Part shown: one piece after another, positions 3,211-14,371 of the stretch
Position numbering within the stretch: the stretch's first letter is position 1
How the letters are laid out: every line of letters begins with the position of its first letter
Origin: a virus
Strand: one strand, 5' to 3'
Virus record (IMG/VR): IMGVR_UViG_3300006052_000023
Coordinates: 1 to 30,786 of that record
Length of the DNA: 30,786 nucleotides
Position numbers and translations under genes: made by a program
The notes under the pieces: model-generated
Told to the model about the DNA's origin: nothing
Database searches by the model: none
The model's input: the letters and a program-made list of their open reading frames with translations, nothing else

Positions 3211-5271
3211 ATGAAGAAAAATGCCCTGGTAAAGTCTCCGGTTAAAATTTTACCGGCGGGTGGAAGTTATGGACGTTTGTTTACGGCGCCCTCGCCCCGC
3301 GTACAAGGAATTCGCCAGGGAATTGGATGGTTTGGGCCAGAGCAGGCGATCGCACCCGTGGCCCCGCCGGGGACGACACCCCGCGGTTTCCAATATACTC
3401 CGGGGCAAAACCTGATCTATACGCCCCGCGCCACCGAAGATTTGACAATGGAAGACCTGCGGGAATTTGCCAAGTATCCCATTGTCCGGTATATTATCGA
3501 AACCAGAATTGATCAAATTTGCCGTCAGGCGTGGTCAATTCGGGTAAAACCAAAAGCCGGCGAGTCTAACCGGCAACGTCTTGCGCGCGAGGCCGGCGAT
3601 AAGATTGTTCAACAACTTACCAATTTTTTGCAATACCCCAATCCGGATTGCACCTGGCGCAGCTTTCTTAGAATGTTGATGGACGATGTCCTGGTAATCG
3701 ACGCGCCGGCCATATTACTTCGGCGTAATGCCCTGGGGGATATTGCCGAGATGCGGGCCATTGACGGAGCTACCATTGTTCGTTACATCAATGAGCAGGG
3801 TTGGACTCCGGACAAAGGAAAGGCCTATGCTCAGTTGTGGTATGGAATTCCGATGGTGGACCTTACCACGGATCAACTGGTGTATCGCCCGGAACATCCC
3901 CGTACCAATAAATTGTACGGGTATTCTCGCGTTGAGCAGGCCTACAAGCAAATCATTCTTGGACAGAACCGTCTGGAAATGCAATTACAGTTCTATGAGA
4001 ATGGCTCGATTCCAGATGGCATCATGGTGGTTCCTCCCACCGCAACCCCAGAACAAATTGAACGTCAGCAAAATTGGATGAACTCGACGTTGGCCGGAAA
4101 CCTTTCTCGGCGTGTCCAACTTCGCCTTATTCAAGGCTTCAATATCGATGGGAAACCAGAACAAATTCTCTTTCCAAAAGAGAAATTGATCACGGATGAA
4201 ACAGATGATTTTATTATTCGGTCATTATGTTTCGCTTTCCAGGTATCTCCACAACGTTGGATGAAGATGGTCAATCGTGCCTCGGCCGAGGCCTCCCAGG
4301 AGGCCGCCGAAGAAGAGGGTCTGGCTCCTACCAAAGATTATGTCCGCGATCTCATGAACTACATTATTCAGTGTAAATTGGGTTTTGTAGAGCACGAGTT
4401 TGCATGGGCGGATCACCGCGACCCAGATATTCTTAAACAGGCCCAGGCCGACGAACTTTATGTCAAGGCCGGAATTAACACTATCAATGAAATTCGTGAA
4501 AGTAAGGGGGACGACCCGAGTCCCAATCCGGCCGCCGATCAACTGAATATCGTCACTGGACAAGGTACGGTAGAGGTTGGCCAAACTCTTCCTTCCAAGC
4601 AGGCCGAACAGCTGGCAGGATCAAAAAGCGGTACGGGTGGGCGTCCCGGTAGTTTAACAAGTACCGGAACCGTAAACAAGCCACCTTCGACGTCACAGGT
4701 TAGTCCGGCAAAACAAAAAGACTCAAAAAAGAAGGCCCTGGAAGCGGGAGATTTATCCAAAGGTTATAAATTTGCCTCTACGCAAATTAACCTTCCCGGC
4801 CCGTATGCCGAAGAAATTATCGAACTGGGTCGTAGTTTGATTCCAGAAGAAGATTTGGACGGCCGTGGGAGAGAAACGGAGCCGCATGTCACCGTAAAGT
4901 ACGGTGTTCATGAAAATGAACAACGTTTGCGAATGGCATTGGAAAATCACGAACCAATTGAAATTCTTTTGGGGCCGGTAGAGACATTCGAACCATCTGA
5001 ACATAGTGACGGAGCGGCCCCGGTAGTTATCAAAGTTATCTCTGGTGATCTTCGTAAAGTTCGCCGAGACGTGGATACTTTCGTGGGTGCCATGCCAGAT
5101 AATTTTGACTATACTCCACATGTAACCATCGCCTATGTACGGGCCGATTGCGCAAGCAAGTACCAGGGGGCGGGAGATTTCAGTGACGTGAAATTTATCG
5201 CCAAATCCATGTCTCTTTGCAAAATGGACGGAACCAAATTAGAAGTTCCGTTGGGTAAATCGGAGGAATAG
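3211..5271 (+). CDS. Portal protein with C-terminal 2H phosphoesterase domain
   Basis: 686 residues, ATG at 3211 with AAAGGAG nine bases upstream. Residues about 70-440 look like a siphophage portal: the conserved start (YPIVRYIIETRIDQICRQAW), the wing region with DDVLVIDAPAILLRR, and the long helical stretch around QNRLEMQLQFYENGSIPDG. The portal forms the dodecameric vertex ring through which DNA is packaged. A Ser/Thr/Lys-rich linker (about 445-515) leads to a second domain (about 518-686) with two H-x-T motifs, PHVTVKYG (H559, T561) and PHVTIAYV (H637, T639), the signature of 2H phosphoesterases (LigT, CPDase, phage Acb1 families), which act on 2',3'-cyclic or cyclic oligonucleotide bonds. 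The frame is continuous through both parts and I see no well-placed internal start. The domain's activity and substrate are inference. Confidence 0.92.
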   Translation: MKKNALVKSPVKILPAGGSYGRLFTAPSPRVQGIRQGIGWFGPEQAIAPVAPPGTTPRGFQYTPGQNLIYTPRATEDLTMEDLREFAKYPIVRYIIETRIDQICRQAWSIRVKPKAGESNRQRLAREAGDKIVQQLTNFLQYPNPDCTWRSFLRMLMDDVLVIDAPAILLRRNALGDIAEMRAIDGATIVRYINEQGWTPDKGKAYAQLWYGIPMVDLTTDQLVYRPEHPRTNKLYGYSRVEQAYKQIILGQNRLEMQLQFYENGSIPDGIMVVPPTATPEQIERQQNWMNSTLAGNLSRRVQLRLIQGFNIDGKPEQILFPKEKLITDETDDFIIRSLCFAFQVSPQRWMKMVNRASAEASQEAAEEEGLAPTKDYVRDLMNYIIQCKLGFVEHEFAWADHRDPDILKQAQADELYVKAGINTINEIRESKGDDPSPNPAADQLNIVTGQGTVEVGQTLPSKQAEQLAGSKSGTGGRPGSLTSTGTVNKPPSTSQVSPAKQKDSKKKALEAGDLSKGYKFASTQINLPGPYAEEIIELGRSLIPEEDLDGRGRETEPHVTVKYGVHENEQRLRMALENHEPIEILLGPVETFEPSEHSDGAAPVVIKVISGDLRKVRRDVDTFVGAMPDNFDYTPHVTIAYVRADCASKYQGAGDFSDVKFIAKSMSLCKMDGTKLEVPLGKSEE

Positions 5272-6863: not shown

Positions 6864-8681
6864 ATGGCCTTTGGGTTGAACAAGTTTATTCAGTTGTCAA
6901 AGGTCGACGAGGCCACTCACGAAGTTTGGGGAATCGCATCGTCTGAGGCCCCGGATGCGGATGGCGAAATCGCAGATTACGATGCGACCAAGGCCGCTTT
7001 CCAAAAGTGGTCCGAAGATACCTTGAACAAAACCCAGGCGGCCGGACAGGACCCTTCATTGGGAAATGTCCGGTTGCAACACACTTTGACCATCGCCGGT
7101 AAAGTTATCAAAATTCAATATGATGATGAGGGCCGAAAGGTTTTAATCGGTTCTCAACCGGTTAACGACGAGATTTGGGAACTGGTAAAAGGTGGATTTG
7201 TCACCGGATATTCCATGGGTGGTGGTTATGCCTGGAAAAAACCAGATGGCAAGTATACCCGTTTTGCGCCGGTTTTGGCAGAAATGAGTTATGTAGATGC
7301 GGCCTGTAATCCCGAGGCCAATTTCACTTATATCAAGGCCGATGGTAATTCAGAACTTCGCAAGTTTAAAAAAGGTGATGAACTTCCCGCCGGAGTTCTC
7401 GAAACCATGGCAAAACGAGTTGCGGCCATTCTCCAAAAGCAAGCCAATCCTGCTAAATTTTTACATGCATGCAATGAAAATTGTTTTCATGTAGAAGATT
7501 CGGAATTGGCAAAAGAAACAAAGAAAAAGGGAGGGCAGGAACTACATGCATCTGAATTCGCCTTTGTGGGCGATGCGGATGACCCAAGTACCTGGAAACT
7601 TCCAATTCATGATGCGGCCCATGTTCGTAATGCCTTGGCACGGTTCAACCAAACCGAGGGCATTCCGGCGGGGGAGAAAGACAAAGTTCACGCACGGATC
7701 GTGGCGGCCGCGAAGAAATTTGGTGTCGAAGTAAGTGAAAAGGCCCTACGAGCCGTATTTAAAAAATGTGAAACAGAACCCACTGGCAAAGTAACACGCT
7801 TCTTGTTACAATCGGTTAATGGGCTGCATAAGGGTTTGTGGCAAGTTGCCCAAATGGCCGAGTTACTTGATTCTCTGTACGGTCTTTGCATGAGCACGCA
7901 GTACGAAGCGGAAATTGAACAGGACAGTTCTTCGATTCCCGCCGAGTTGCGCGCCCATCTCAAATCTTTGGCCAGTACTTTGATTTCCCTGGCCGAAGAA
8001 GAAACAGAGGAAATCATCTCCGCCACGGGCGGGAAGGAGAAACTCTTAATGGCACTCGAATTGAATGACATGCAAAAGGCGGAGTTGCAAAAGGCGCGCC
8101 ACTCCATTGATCAGATGCTGGACAATTTGCACAAGTCCAGTCATGCGATGCACGACGGTATGATCGCGCATCATCAGACAATGCAGGAATGTCACAAGGC
8201 CCACTGTGCAAAAATGATTGGCATGCATGACAAGGCCATTGCACAGCACCAAGACCGAAAAGAAGAAGTAACCGATCACATCGCGAAAATGAAAAAGGCC
8301 CTGGGTGTAATGGGTGGAGAAACCGAGGGTATCATGGATGGCCACGAGGCCGACAAGGCTGCCAAAGATGCCATGGAAAAAGCAGCCAAGGAAAAGACCG
8401 ATAAGGAGGCCGCCGATCGGGCCGCCGCGGAGTCCGCGATGAAAATTGAAACTGAAAAAATGGAGAAGGCTTTTAAAGAACAACAAGAAAAGTTTGAAAA
8501 GGCCCAACAGGAAACGGCCAATCAGATCAAAACTCTTGTTGAGCAGGTCGAGAAACTGACCAAGGCCGCGGCCACCACGATCGTTACTCCCGGCTCCCAG
8601 ACCGACCCGAAGTTGATTACCCCGGAAGGTCAGCATTTGCAGAAGTCGTCCGCCGATACCATGCGGGATACCGGAATCTAA
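6864..8681 (+). CDS. Prohead protease (XkdF-like) fused to capsid scaffold
   Basis: 605 residues, ATG 6864 with AAAGGAG upstream. Residues 1-155 match the XkdF-type phage serine protease region: VWGIASSEAPDADGEI near the start, H73 in LQHTLTIAG, S117 in GYSMGGGY and E140 in APVLAEMSYVDAACNP; H73 and S117 are the candidate catalytic residues. Residues about 228-293 (EFAFVGDADDPSTWKLPIHD ... RIVAAAKKFGVEVSE) match a small domain often joined to phage proteases and known as DUF6582. Residues 300-390 are helical. From 396 on the protein is a long charged coiled coil with a His-rich part, as expected for a scaffold. It precedes the capsid gene, as in HK97-like phages. The scaffold is probably cleaved by the protease. 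Confidence 0.85.
   Translation: MAFGLNKFIQLSKVDEATHEVWGIASSEAPDADGEIADYDATKAAFQKWSEDTLNKTQAAGQDPSLGNVRLQHTLTIAGKVIKIQYDDEGRKVLIGSQPVNDEIWELVKGGFVTGYSMGGGYAWKKPDGKYTRFAPVLAEMSYVDAACNPEANFTYIKADGNSELRKFKKGDELPAGVLETMAKRVAAILQKQANPAKFLHACNENCFHVEDSELAKETKKKGGQELHASEFAFVGDADDPSTWKLPIHDAAHVRNALARFNQTEGIPAGEKDKVHARIVAAAKKFGVEVSEKALRAVFKKCETEPTGKVTRFLLQSVNGLHKGLWQVAQMAELLDSLYGLCMSTQYEAEIEQDSSSIPAELRAHLKSLASTLISLAEEETEEIISATGGKEKLLMALELNDMQKAELQKARHSIDQMLDNLHKSSHAMHDGMIAHHQTMQECHKAHCAKMIGMHDKAIAQHQDRKEEVTDHIAKMKKALGVMGGETEGIMDGHEADKAAKDAMEKAAKEKTDKEAADRAAAESAMKIETEKMEKAFKEQQEKFEKAQQETANQIKTLVEQVEKLTKAAATTIVTPGSQTDPKLITPEGQHLQKSSADTMRDTGI
8049..8681 (+). CDS. Nested capsid scaffold from in-frame internal start
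   Basis: An ATG at 8049 (residue 396 of the protease-scaffold frame) is preceded by AAGGAG at 8034-8039, nine bases upstream, as good as the true starts in this operon. It would give a separate 210-residue protein (MALELNDMQKAELQK ...) made almost entirely of coiled coil, without the protease and DUF6582 parts. This copies the layout of lambda C/Nu3, where the scaffold is made from an internal start in the protease gene and is needed in excess. The internal start is read from sequence; its use is inferred. Confidence 0.65.
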   Translation: MALELNDMQKAELQKARHSIDQMLDNLHKSSHAMHDGMIAHHQTMQECHKAHCAKMIGMHDKAIAQHQDRKEEVTDHIAKMKKALGVMGGETEGIMDGHEADKAAKDAMEKAAKEKTDKEAADRAAAESAMKIETEKMEKAFKEQQEKFEKAQQETANQIKTLVEQVEKLTKAAATTIVTPGSQTDPKLITPEGQHLQKSSADTMRDTGI

Positions 8682-8722: not shown

Positions 8723-8761
8723 AGTACAGACCAAGGAAGTATGCCCAAGGAGGCCAGAGCT

Positions 8762-10495
8762 ATGAGTCATTTGCACAACATCCTCCCGCAGCCCATGTAC
8801 GCCCGGTATCTGGCGGAAACTGCGGATTTCAACCGTGATTTTGTCAAGAAAAATCTGAGCGCCCAAGAACAAGAACTTCTGCGAAAGTTCAAAACCACCG
8901 AGGGTGATGAAAAGCAGGCCCGTGAGCGTGAGGTCCTGGCTCGGCAGTTAATCAAGGCCCAGGCCGACGCTTATTACAATGCCGATGGATCGCCCAAGGC
9001 CGGTGCCCTGCGCAAGGCCGGTGTAACTTCTGGTCTGGGTTACAATTTTTATGATCTCCGCGCCCCGGTTCAACTTTCTTATCCGGTCAATGTTCCGTTT
9101 CGTAACATGCTTCCTCGTGTGGGACGTGTGAATGACGGATACGGCGTGGCCGCCCACTGGATGGCAACTCGTAACTTCGGCACGGTATATGCCGGAGTTT
9201 CGGAAGGTCAACGAAACCAGTTGGCAACCCCCGATCAGAACAACTACACTGCGACCTACAAAGAAATCGGCGTAGAGCGTGGTGTGACGTTTACTGCCCA
9301 GTTCGCCGGCGAAGGTTTCTCCGACAACGTGGCAGACGAACATCTCCGTGGTTTGCACGAATTGTGGCTCCAGGAAGAGGCCCTGATGTTGATGGGCAAT
9401 TCCGGAACCGCCTCGGGAAATAACGGTTACTTGCTTGGAACTACCAATACCCCGGTCAATGCTTTGGTAACCGCGACCTCACCCATTGGTTCGGGTGTAA
9501 ACGTCACCGTTTACTGCATCGCCATGACCGGCCTGGCGAATCCCAACAATACGCAGTATGGTTATGGTTTGTTTCCGACGGCCACCTCGGGATTGACCCC
9601 GACTTATACCCGTACTAACCAGGATGGCTCCACCACCGTAGTTAACGGAGGCATGGGAATTATCAGCGCGGCCAGCAACACGGTGGTCACGACCGGCGGT
9701 GCGCAGGTAGTTACCTCGACCGTCACGGCGACCAAAGGCGCGTTCTCTTATGCCTGGTATGTTTCGATCAATGCTTCTCCGATCACGGCCAATGCTTATC
9801 TGTATTCGATCACGACCGTGCCAACCGTGACCATTAACTCAAATCCGGTTAACACCAACCAGGCGGCCAACGCGGCCGGCCTTACCACGGATCACTCCAA
9901 TAACCCGACGGACTTCGATGGTCTTCTGACCTATGCCGCGGCCACGGCGGGAACCTACTGGAAGGACCTGGGAGGCGCCACTCTTACCTCTGGTAAGGAT
10001 GGCACCGTGGTGGAAATCGAAGCGGCCTTGCAAGACCGCTGGACCCAGTATCAGGCGGAGGTGGATGAAATCTGGTGCGGTACGCAGGCGCGTATTACCC
10101 TGGATCAGGCTATCCGTTACTCTGGCACGGCCAGTCCGGCGTTCCGCTTTGAATACAGCCGCGATGCGCAGAATAACCTATTGGGTGGATACGTGGTTTC
10201 TGCGTATCAGTCCAAGTGGAGTTTGAACAGTCGTGGCGGAGCGGCCATTCCGGTTCGCCATCACCCCATGCTTCCTCCGGGTTGCATCTTCTTCCACGTG
10301 AAGACGAATCCCTATCCCCACAGCCGCATTCCGTTTGTCGCCGGCATGCTGGTACAACGTGAATACTACTCGATCGAATGGCCCCTGGTCACCCGCCAGT
10401 GGACGTTCGGTACCTACGTCCACGAAGTACTGGCGCACAACCTTCCCTGGATCAGTGGTTTCTTGTCCAGCGTCGGTCCGTTCGTCGGCAACTAA
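8762..10495 (+). CDS. Major capsid protein
   Basis: 577 residues. I choose ATG 8762 because AAGGAGG at 8747-8753 sits eight bases before it; an in-frame ATG at 8741 has only a poor site. The product begins with a charged helical arm (residues about 15-75), possibly a processed delta-like region, followed by the capsid fold: APVQLSYPVNVPFRNMLPRV, IGVERGVTFTAQFAGEGFSD and LWLQEEALMLMGNSG. Residues about 225-370 form a Thr/Gly/Ser-rich insertion that may be a surface-exposed beta domain. The C-terminal part (EALQDRWTQYQAEVDEIWCG to PLVTRQWTFGTYVHEVL) resumes the HK97-type core. It is followed by two hairpins, in keeping with a very highly expressed gene. At 577 residues it is long for the family because of the insertion. 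Confidence 0.88.
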   Translation: MSHLHNILPQPMYARYLAETADFNRDFVKKNLSAQEQELLRKFKTTEGDEKQAREREVLARQLIKAQADAYYNADGSPKAGALRKAGVTSGLGYNFYDLRAPVQLSYPVNVPFRNMLPRVGRVNDGYGVAAHWMATRNFGTVYAGVSEGQRNQLATPDQNNYTATYKEIGVERGVTFTAQFAGEGFSDNVADEHLRGLHELWLQEEALMLMGNSGTASGNNGYLLGTTNTPVNALVTATSPIGSGVNVTVYCIAMTGLANPNNTQYGYGLFPTATSGLTPTYTRTNQDGSTTVVNGGMGIISAASNTVVTTGGAQVVTSTVTATKGAFSYAWYVSINASPITANAYLYSITTVPTVTINSNPVNTNQAANAAGLTTDHSNNPTDFDGLLTYAAATAGTYWKDLGGATLTSGKDGTVVEIEAALQDRWTQYQAEVDEIWCGTQARITLDQAIRYSGTASPAFRFEYSRDAQNNLLGGYVVSAYQSKWSLNSRGGAAIPVRHHPMLPPGCIFFHVKTNPYPHSRIPFVAGMLVQREYYSIEWPLVTRQWTFGTYVHEVLAHNLPWISGFLSSVGPFVGN

Positions 10496-12805: not shown

Positions 12806-13588
12806 TTGGCTTTTCAATTTGGTTCCGGAGTTGTCTGGTGTACGCCAAATGGTGGCAATCTTGCCACTAACCCCACTCCTTTGGAATTGGGTACCATCGA
12901 ATCAGCCAGCGTCGATTTTACCGGTACGCTGAAAGAATTGATTGGTTTCCTTCAATTTCCAGATGACGTGGCCGTCGGTGAAAAGAAGGTCAGTGGTAAA
13001 ATTACCATGGGCCGAATTGACGCCTTGACTTTTAACAATGTGTTCTTTGCGGATGTGGCCGCGGCCGGCACCGTAAACGACTATTACAATTTTGCCGCGA
13101 CGGTTCCCACCACACCTTTCCAAGTTACCATCATACCTCCTCTCAGCGGTACGTTTTTTGCCGATCTGGGTGTGATCTATGCTTCCGGGACCAACGCCGG
13201 AAAACGGTTTATTAACGTCGGCGCCGGTTCATTAACTGCCGCCGGTCAATACAAAGTAAACACCGGGACTGGCGTTTACACCTTTTTCTTGCAAGAAGGT
13301 CCAGTATTGATTTCGTACCAGTATACGCTTGCTTCGACCGGAAACACGTACCAGATCAATAACCAAATCATGGGTTATGGTCCAGTTCTTATGCTTGATT
13401 TGCTCTGGGGTTATCAGGGCGGTTATCAAGGAGCGGCCAATGCCCTGGGCATTCATCTCTACGCGGCCCGTATTTCCAAGTTGAACATGGCCGCCAAGAA
13501 TACCGATTATGTAAAGCCGGAATTTGATTTTTCGGCCTTCGCCAACGCCTCCGGTCAGGTTGGTTACATCATCCAGAGCGCGAACTAA
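12806..13588 (+). CDS. Tail tube protein, copy 1 (TTG start)
   Basis: 260 residues. The TTG at 12806 is preceded by AAGGAGG at 12794-12800, five bases upstream, and aligns exactly with the ATG of the next gene. Residues 1-83 and the last 79 are nearly identical to copy 2 (about five differences in each block), while the middle (about 84-180) has diverged. Tube-like strands are GTIESASVDFTGTLKELIGF and KKVSGKITMGRIDALTF. The middle holds ADLGVIYASGTNAGKRF ... YTFFLQEGPVLISYQYT, an insert resembling that in the adaptor. As the first tail gene after the terminator it is probably a tail tube subunit. The weaker start codon suggests lower output than copy 2. Confidence 0.82.
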   Translation: MAFQFGSGVVWCTPNGGNLATNPTPLELGTIESASVDFTGTLKELIGFLQFPDDVAVGEKKVSGKITMGRIDALTFNNVFFADVAAAGTVNDYYNFAATVPTTPFQVTIIPPLSGTFFADLGVIYASGTNAGKRFINVGAGSLTAAGQYKVNTGTGVYTFFLQEGPVLISYQYTLASTGNTYQINNQIMGYGPVLMLDLLWGYQGGYQGAANALGIHLYAARISKLNMAAKNTDYVKPEFDFSAFANASGQVGYIIQSAN

Positions 13589-13597
13589 GGAGCTGAC

Positions 13598-14371
13598 ATG
13601 GCTTTTCAATTTGGAAGTGGTGTCGTATGGTGTACCCCGCAAACGGGAAATCTCGCCACTAACCCGACTCCCGTGGAACTGGGAACCATCGAGTCGGCCA
13701 GCGTGGATTTTACCGGTACTTTGAAAGAACTGATTGGGTTCTTGCAATTTCCTGATGATGTGGCCGTGGGTGAAAAAAAGGTGTCTGGCAAGATTACCAT
13801 GGGGCGCATTGATGCTTTTACCTTTAACCAGGTCTTTTTTGCGGATACTACGTCCACTCCGCAGACGAATGACCAGTACAACGAATCTCGCACCGTGGCC
13901 GCCGGCGCCGCGACCGTGGTTCCTCCGGGTTCCGGAACCTTTGTGGGCGATCTGGGTGTGATTTATGCCTCCGGGGCCAACGCCGGAAAACGATTTACAA
14001 AGGTTGCCTCTGCCCCGGCGGTGGGGCAATATACCAATTCCGGAACCACGGCGTACGGTTTCAATACCGGAGATAACGCGTCGGTTGTATTAATTTCTTA
14101 CCAATACACGATCGCCGCGACCGGTACTTCTTACCAGATCAATAACCAGATCATGGGTTATGGTCCGGTAATCTCTCTTGACTTTTTGTGGGGATACCAG
14201 GGTGGTTACCAGGGCGCGGCGAATGCCCTGGGAATTCATTTGTACGCGGCCCGTATCTCCAAACTAAACCTGGCAGCCAAGAATACCGATTATGTCAAAC
14301 CAGAGTTCGACTATTCGGCATTCGCCAATGCCTCCGGCCAGGTGGGATATATCATCCAGTCGGCGAACTAA
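13598..14371 (+). CDS. Tail tube protein, copy 2 (ATG start), likely major
   Basis: 257 residues, ATG 13598 with AAGGAG five bases upstream, nine bases after copy 1. It is a tandem paralogue of copy 1: the N-terminal block (MAFQFGSGVVWCTP ...) and the C-terminal block (YQINNQIMGYGPV ... VGYIIQSAN) are conserved at protein level, while synonymous sites differ widely, so the duplication is not recent. The variable centre is shorter and contains GDLGVIYASGANAGKRFTKV. The better start codon and the strong terminator after it suggest that this is the abundant tube protein. Both copies could be built into the same tube. Confidence 0.83.
   Translation: MAFQFGSGVVWCTPQTGNLATNPTPVELGTIESASVDFTGTLKELIGFLQFPDDVAVGEKKVSGKITMGRIDAFTFNQVFFADTTSTPQTNDQYNESRTVAAGAATVVPPGSGTFVGDLGVIYASGANAGKRFTKVASAPAVGQYTNSGTTAYGFNTGDNASVVLISYQYTIAATGTSYQINNQIMGYGPVISLDFLWGYQGGYQGAANALGIHLYAARISKLNLAAKNTDYVKPEFDYSAFANASGQVGYIIQSAN

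Follow-up and report, generated by a model that had tools for sequence, protein, structure and literature searches.

2H phosphoesterase domains joined to phage head proteins form a described class. In the available text of Iyer et al. (2017; PMC5512222), such domains are fused to MuF or to portal proteins, and either an RNase role or the degradation of nucleotide signals was proposed for them; the accessible part of a 2022 paper (PMC9503650) repeats the 2H-portal/MuF fusion and adds injection. The protein studied here is encoded in what we call the window, the whole 30,786-nucleotide stretch of viral DNA analysed (IMG/VR record IMGVR_UViG_3300006052_000023). It likewise carries its 2H domain on a portal polypeptide and, with the product of a second contig, L021, provides further examples of the class for which the same text proposes packaging and injection, the examples in the figure of Iyer et al. 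standing outside the comparison. The novelty of the architecture is therefore lowered by its publication, in that text, in 2017 (PMC5512222). To judge from the sequences compared here, the new elements would be the breadth of the carriers, the nesting of 2H among polyvalent domains and an exchange between 2H and MuF.

Acb1 (T4 gp57B), an anti-CBASS 2H nuclease, has in common with the window domain the 2H fold, the HxT/HxT tetrad and an aromatic residue at the W74 site, but it is a small free protein, whereas the window domain is a portal-fused, predicted enzyme in which W147 and E141 are not conserved. LigT/ThpR, CPDase and YjcG (PF13563, PF02834), which represent the best Pfam family and the closest folds, are cellular free enzymes, unlike the portal-fused domain. 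Polyvalent proteins, which are thought to be injected, also carry 2H (Tunturi_5 gp321, L038, L022), and L038 is among the closest tree relatives of the window domain; these are chains of many effector domains, in contrast to the one extra domain on the window portal. Tunturi_5 gp321, a similar multidomain 2H protein of 1362 aa, comes from a cultured phage. In the Gordonia phage proteins Rofo gp16, Lilbeanie gp16 and GMA2 Orf10, the carrier is a head maturation protease rather than a portal.

The portal-2H reading frame

An open reading frame check found one uninterrupted frame of 686 codons at 3211-5271 on the plus strand. The domain order of its product is HK97-type portal, disordered linker and 2H phosphoesterase domain, and the features to which we refer are as follows.

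3211..5271, plus strand: portal-2H fusion ORF, 686 aa; a single open frame with portal and 2H family matches
3325..4560, plus strand: portal core, residues 39-450; portal HMM over 39-450 at 517 bits, Foldseek matches to portals
4561..4764, plus strand: low-complexity linker, residues 451-518; pLDDT <50 at 470-532
4765..5244, plus strand: 2H phosphoesterase domain, residues 519-678; family HMM at 159.8 bits, PF13563, AlphaFold model
4885..4893, plus strand: first H-x-T motif (H559, codon from 4885; T561, from 4891); invariant in 53/53 sequences
4987..4989, plus strand: F593, at the place of the base-stacking W74 of Acb1; Phe in 53/53, from the alignment with T4 Acb1
5119..5127, plus strand: second H-x-T motif (H637, codon from 5119; T639, from 5125); invariant in 53/53
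6864..8681, plus strand: probable head maturation protease with a coiled-coil C-terminal half (protease-scaffold type), assigned from position
8741..10495, plus strand: probable major capsid protein; phrog_13692, a PHROG of unknown function, the role assigned from position

The portal part is recognised by Pfam as Phage_portal (PF04860, residues 134-431, E 1.6e-17; 64.1 bits, against a curated cut-off of 39.1) and by PHROGs as phrog_2662 (E 2.8e-51), and its modelled fold matched the portals of phage 812 (8qje, E 9.4e-17), HK97 (8fql, E 6.2e-11) and T5 in Foldseek, the model itself being of moderate quality only, with pLDDT of about 50-95 in the core. What the earlier note had read from the DNA, namely a portal, a linker and a 2H domain in a single frame, is confirmed, and its positions for the two motifs proved exact. 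By analogy with the portal family, the protein would form a dodecameric ring at one vertex, giving about 12 copies of the 2H domain per virion.

The linker region is of low confidence (pLDDT below 50 at residues 470-532) in the full-length AlphaFold model, which also shows the 2H domain poorly because the portal alignment has no 2H rows; that model was left out of all conclusions on the 2H domain. Separate translation of the 2H domain from ATG, GTG or TTG was considered and rejected, no such in-frame codon occurring between residues 430 and 542, and with the usual start codons the domain would thus be produced solely within the portal protein. A single-sequence pattern search with the whole protein returned no close relatives in viral contigs. 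We also rejected a chance reading, a frame artefact and an assembly error, since the independent contig L021 repeats the same portal-linker-2H order, its protein aligning with that of the window over residues 41-670 (E 2e-90).

Fold, catalytic residues and the relation to Acb1

Pfam assigns residues 546-646 to 2_5_RNA_ligase2 (PF13563) with an E-value of 2e-9, or 1.1e-10 when the domain is searched alone; the window protein did not reach the cut-off of TIGR02258. To measure conservation, the window domain was aligned with 52 relatives found in viral contigs, most of which share 20-36% identity with it; H559, T561, H637 and T639 are invariant in all 53 sequences. An AlphaFold model of residues 516-686 built on this alignment had a mean pLDDT of 95.7, and its top PDB matches in Foldseek were all 2H-superfamily entries: drCPDase (E 5.5e-7), the penguinpox cGAMP PDE, YjcG (TM 0.70), Usb1 and LigT. 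The top BFVD match was part of a large protein of an uncultured phage (TM 0.87). The predicted fold thus places the domain in the 2H superfamily without specifying a substrate; of what the earlier note led one to expect, the 2H-like fold was found in the model and the two H-x-T motifs in the homologues.

That four catalytic residues are retained on unrelated carriers, and among sequences sharing 20-36% identity, argues for selection for catalysis and supports the view that the domain is catalytically intact and, as a prediction, active. A structural or assembly role, such as the binding of RNA or DNA at the portal with catalysis not under selection, would suit the fact that most related portals do without 2H, having MuF or nothing in its place; the same invariant tetrad makes such a role very improbable.

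The earlier note had linked the domain to Acb1 and CBASS, and for this specific link we found no particular support. A true Acb1, destroying the cyclic di- and trinucleotides of CBASS, would be a narrower form of the explanation preferred below. It is suggested by the family profile, whose best PDB sequence match is Acb1 (9q2g, E 7.5e-9), by the Pfam Acb1 family (PF23474), which the 2H domain alone matches just above the cut-off (27.5 bits against 27, E 3e-6), and by the W74 position of T4 Acb1, which is occupied by Phe in 53/53 sequences. However, PF13563 outscores PF23474 on the window protein, and the whole protein falls below the Acb1 cut-off at 23.0 bits. Of the T4 residues described in PMC9117128 (W74; the lid residue W147; E141, a base contact), neither W147 nor E141 has a conserved counterpart in the 53 sequences, including the window, in a C-terminal part where the alignment is uncertain; the position of Y12 lies in an N-terminal alignment of low confidence. 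Foldseek shows no preference for Acb1 either, placing CPDase, the poxvirus cGAMP PDE, YjcG, Usb1 and LigT above the Acb1 proteins of phages BCSR5 and FBB1. A search of the literature found neither an Acb1-portal fusion under that name nor a DUF1073-Acb1 fusion. On this balance we consider a true Acb1 unlikely.

Carriers of the 2H domain and its exchange with MuF

Portals that carry 2H at the C-terminal end come from three Pfam families: PF04860 (the window and L021), Portal_Mu PF06074 (L013) and Phage_portal_3 PF06381 (L033 and L023, the latter with a pterin dehydratase-like part). In cultured phages with a DUF1073-type portal, checked through L033, the similarity covers the portal part only among the matches listed. 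Elsewhere 2H occurs together with the S78 prohead protease (L050, L055; L024 has a protease-like region), and it is also part of large proteins that contain PBECR1 (L022), LPD1 and LPD5 (L011), ddrB-ParB (L009), ART-PolyVal (L038, L036) or methylase/helicase domains (L010).

The Gordonia proteins (loci L155:7981-10632, which is GMA2 Orf10, L156:2756-5371 and L157:2340-3992) contain a 2H-like region with both H-x-T motifs, recognised by the family HMM at weak similarity, and in Rofo and Lilbeanie the protease-2H gene lies close before the gene for the capsid (major head) protein. GMA2 Orf10 is similar, in addition, to fusion proteins with an ADP-ribosyltransferase; its annotation as a 'putative structural protein' was not counted as proof of presence in the virion.

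In several contigs a stand-alone 2H gene is flanked by a terminase gene on one side and by an intein-containing gene for a T4-type portal on the other; the 595-kb LR756511 shows the same arrangement of stand-alone 2H gene, terminase and T4-type portal. The intein-bearing portal genes beside stand-alone 2H are exemplified by L005:5128-7701 and similar contigs. The 25 commonest neighbouring families listed include portals, terminases and capsid genes.

This company bears on RNA repair. After cleavage by host anticodon nucleases or toxins, the domain would open the resulting 2',3'-cyclic phosphate ends and so allow tRNAs to be resealed. Such a function has been envisaged for other 2H enzymes of phages, the best Pfam and PHROG names are 2'-5' RNA ligase2 and RNA ligase, CPDase and LigT stand among the top structural matches, and in L067, a divergent relative, 2H is joined to a part resembling a polynucleotide kinase. 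The window, however, has no recognised RNA ligase or kinase; neither appears among the 25 commonest families beside the stand-alone genes, a list that leaves out 35 rarer ones; fusion to a portal is a poor placement for a repair enzyme; and, according to the available text of PMC5512222, Iyer et al. never saw this type of 2H with RNA ligases. We therefore regard repair as a minor candidate that is probably wrong.

For 2H and PBECR on MuF or portal proteins the same available text (PMC5512222) suggests an RNase role; a Usb1-like enzyme of this kind, directed at host RNA once it has been delivered, accords with the close structural match to Usb1 and with the presence of PBECR1 in the same protein as 2H in L022. 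Usb1 is nevertheless no better a match than other 2H enzymes, and we saw no RNA-binding additions in the window domain, so that this role seems to us distinctly improbable.

In a maximum-likelihood tree the window belongs to a clade of 10 rows (support 100/97) with L038, L036, L009, L015, L012, L010, L018, L021 and L014, most of which are polyvalent or similar multidomain proteins. In the window ORF itself Pfam recognised only the portal and 2H, and not the several effector domains of a polyvalent protein. The five portal fusions do not form one clade and require four changes on this tree, in which many deep branches are weak; a common origin for all five is disfavoured (p-AU 0.033).

A rearrangement is preserved in two members of the clade, the sister contigs L014 and L021. 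L014 has a portal-MuF protein followed by a gene with an N-module and 2H (L014:2261-6591), whereas L021 has a portal-2H protein followed by a gene with an N-module and MuF (L021:4243-8156); the portals are 52% identical, the 2H parts 47% and the MuF parts 54%. From this swapped arrangement it follows that 2H and MuF changed places between neighbouring head genes, an exchange that is not found in the available text of PMC5512222 or PMC9503650. The C-terminal 160 aa of L014:2261-5677 and L021:4243-7020 form a conserved module, 52% identical and with an E-L/C-K-T-M motif, which follows MuF in the L014 portal and 2H in the L021 portal; it has no Pfam match and could represent a further domain of effector or nuclease-like type.

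Among 53 dereplicated portals of the window's family, 17 have MuF, two have 2H (the window and L021) and 34 have neither, with the bias that it was the 2H search, not the portal search, that brought in L014 and L021. None of the 80 portal-scan loci has a direct 2H fusion, and in only one, L102, does a 2H gene lie downstream (0.8 kb). The PF04860 portal-2H fusion thus appears rare, L021 being the only other case found; no MuF is recognisable in the window. A related portal at L076:4911-7262 ends in an HNH endonuclease domain. Another, from the Arthrobacter phage Mufasa8 (L003:2134-5133), ends in MuF and is annotated in one record as a MutT/NUDIX hydrolase; it may be a portal-Nudix-MuF fusion.

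The variety of carriers, the nesting among polyvalent copies and the exchange with MuF make the 2H domain look like cargo of the head or virion, and at the level of sequence they show a movable module, which phages attach to a variety of head proteins and injected proteins. The presence in the head or virion that the earlier note had suggested gains indirect support in this way, from the obligate fusion to the portal and from relatives on head and polyvalent proteins. Now that the same enzyme module is seen to have been recruited to several unrelated head proteins, the prediction made in 2017 can be tested, and the cultured Gordonia phages with head protease-2H proteins, which have laboratory hosts, offer a practical test system.

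Possible function and the neighbouring genes

The explanation we favour, with our judgement evenly divided on it, is a head-borne counter-defence phosphodiesterase, in which the C-terminus of the portal carries an active 2H domain as cargo on a flexible linker. Lacking a separate start codon of the usual kind, the domain would be translated together with the portal and should therefore be built into the head. The C-terminal crown of known portals points into the head, and the 2H domain would accordingly hang inside the capsid. The domain would cleave a phosphodiester bond in some molecule of the host antiviral response, either a nucleotide or an RNA; candidates are oligonucleotide signals, cyclic or 2'-5' linked, and 2',3'-cyclic ends of RNA. 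It could act near the time of head assembly, late in infection, in the producing cell; alternatively, a head protease could cut the linker, and the 2H domain would be ejected and act in the next host. Delivery would need such a cut, since the ring-bound portal itself is not ejected, and a candidate for the cutter, judged by its position, is the product of 6864..8681, which has weak PHROG matches to head maturation proteases (E 4.6e-4 and 9e-3) and also matches phrog_21715.

A role against bacterial defence is plausible by analogy, from the company that 2H keeps and from published 2H enzymes that destroy immune nucleotides, Acb1 and poxvirus enzymes being reported to cleave immune cyclic nucleotides. 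A phage prohead protease has been reported to interact with a CBASS sensor, so that head assembly can be the moment, or the trigger, of detection by the defence. It is possible, if doubtful, that every virion contains some twelve copies of a phosphodiesterase that destroys the signal, fixed to the portal or released, and that these blunt nucleotide-based immunity without new gene expression. If so, the weakening of immunity would set in either while heads are being assembled or as soon as infection begins. The known anti-CBASS enzymes, Acb1 among them, are free proteins; in contrast, incorporating a 2H enzyme into the head would provide a ready-made counter-defence, or place one at the site where head assembly may trigger the defence.

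PADLOC found no match to its defence families, and a pattern search of genome contigs matched no host or prophage for the window. Brevundimonas phage Polewnik has a homologue of the probable major capsid protein (8741..10495) at the corresponding relative position. At 2-1933 the window encodes an open, repetitive protein of 643 aa, with repeats such as QYGAGVLDGWDTDADQQ and no Pfam match. Two adjacent, closely similar genes, at 12806-13588 and 13598-14371, are probably a duplicated tail or tube protein.
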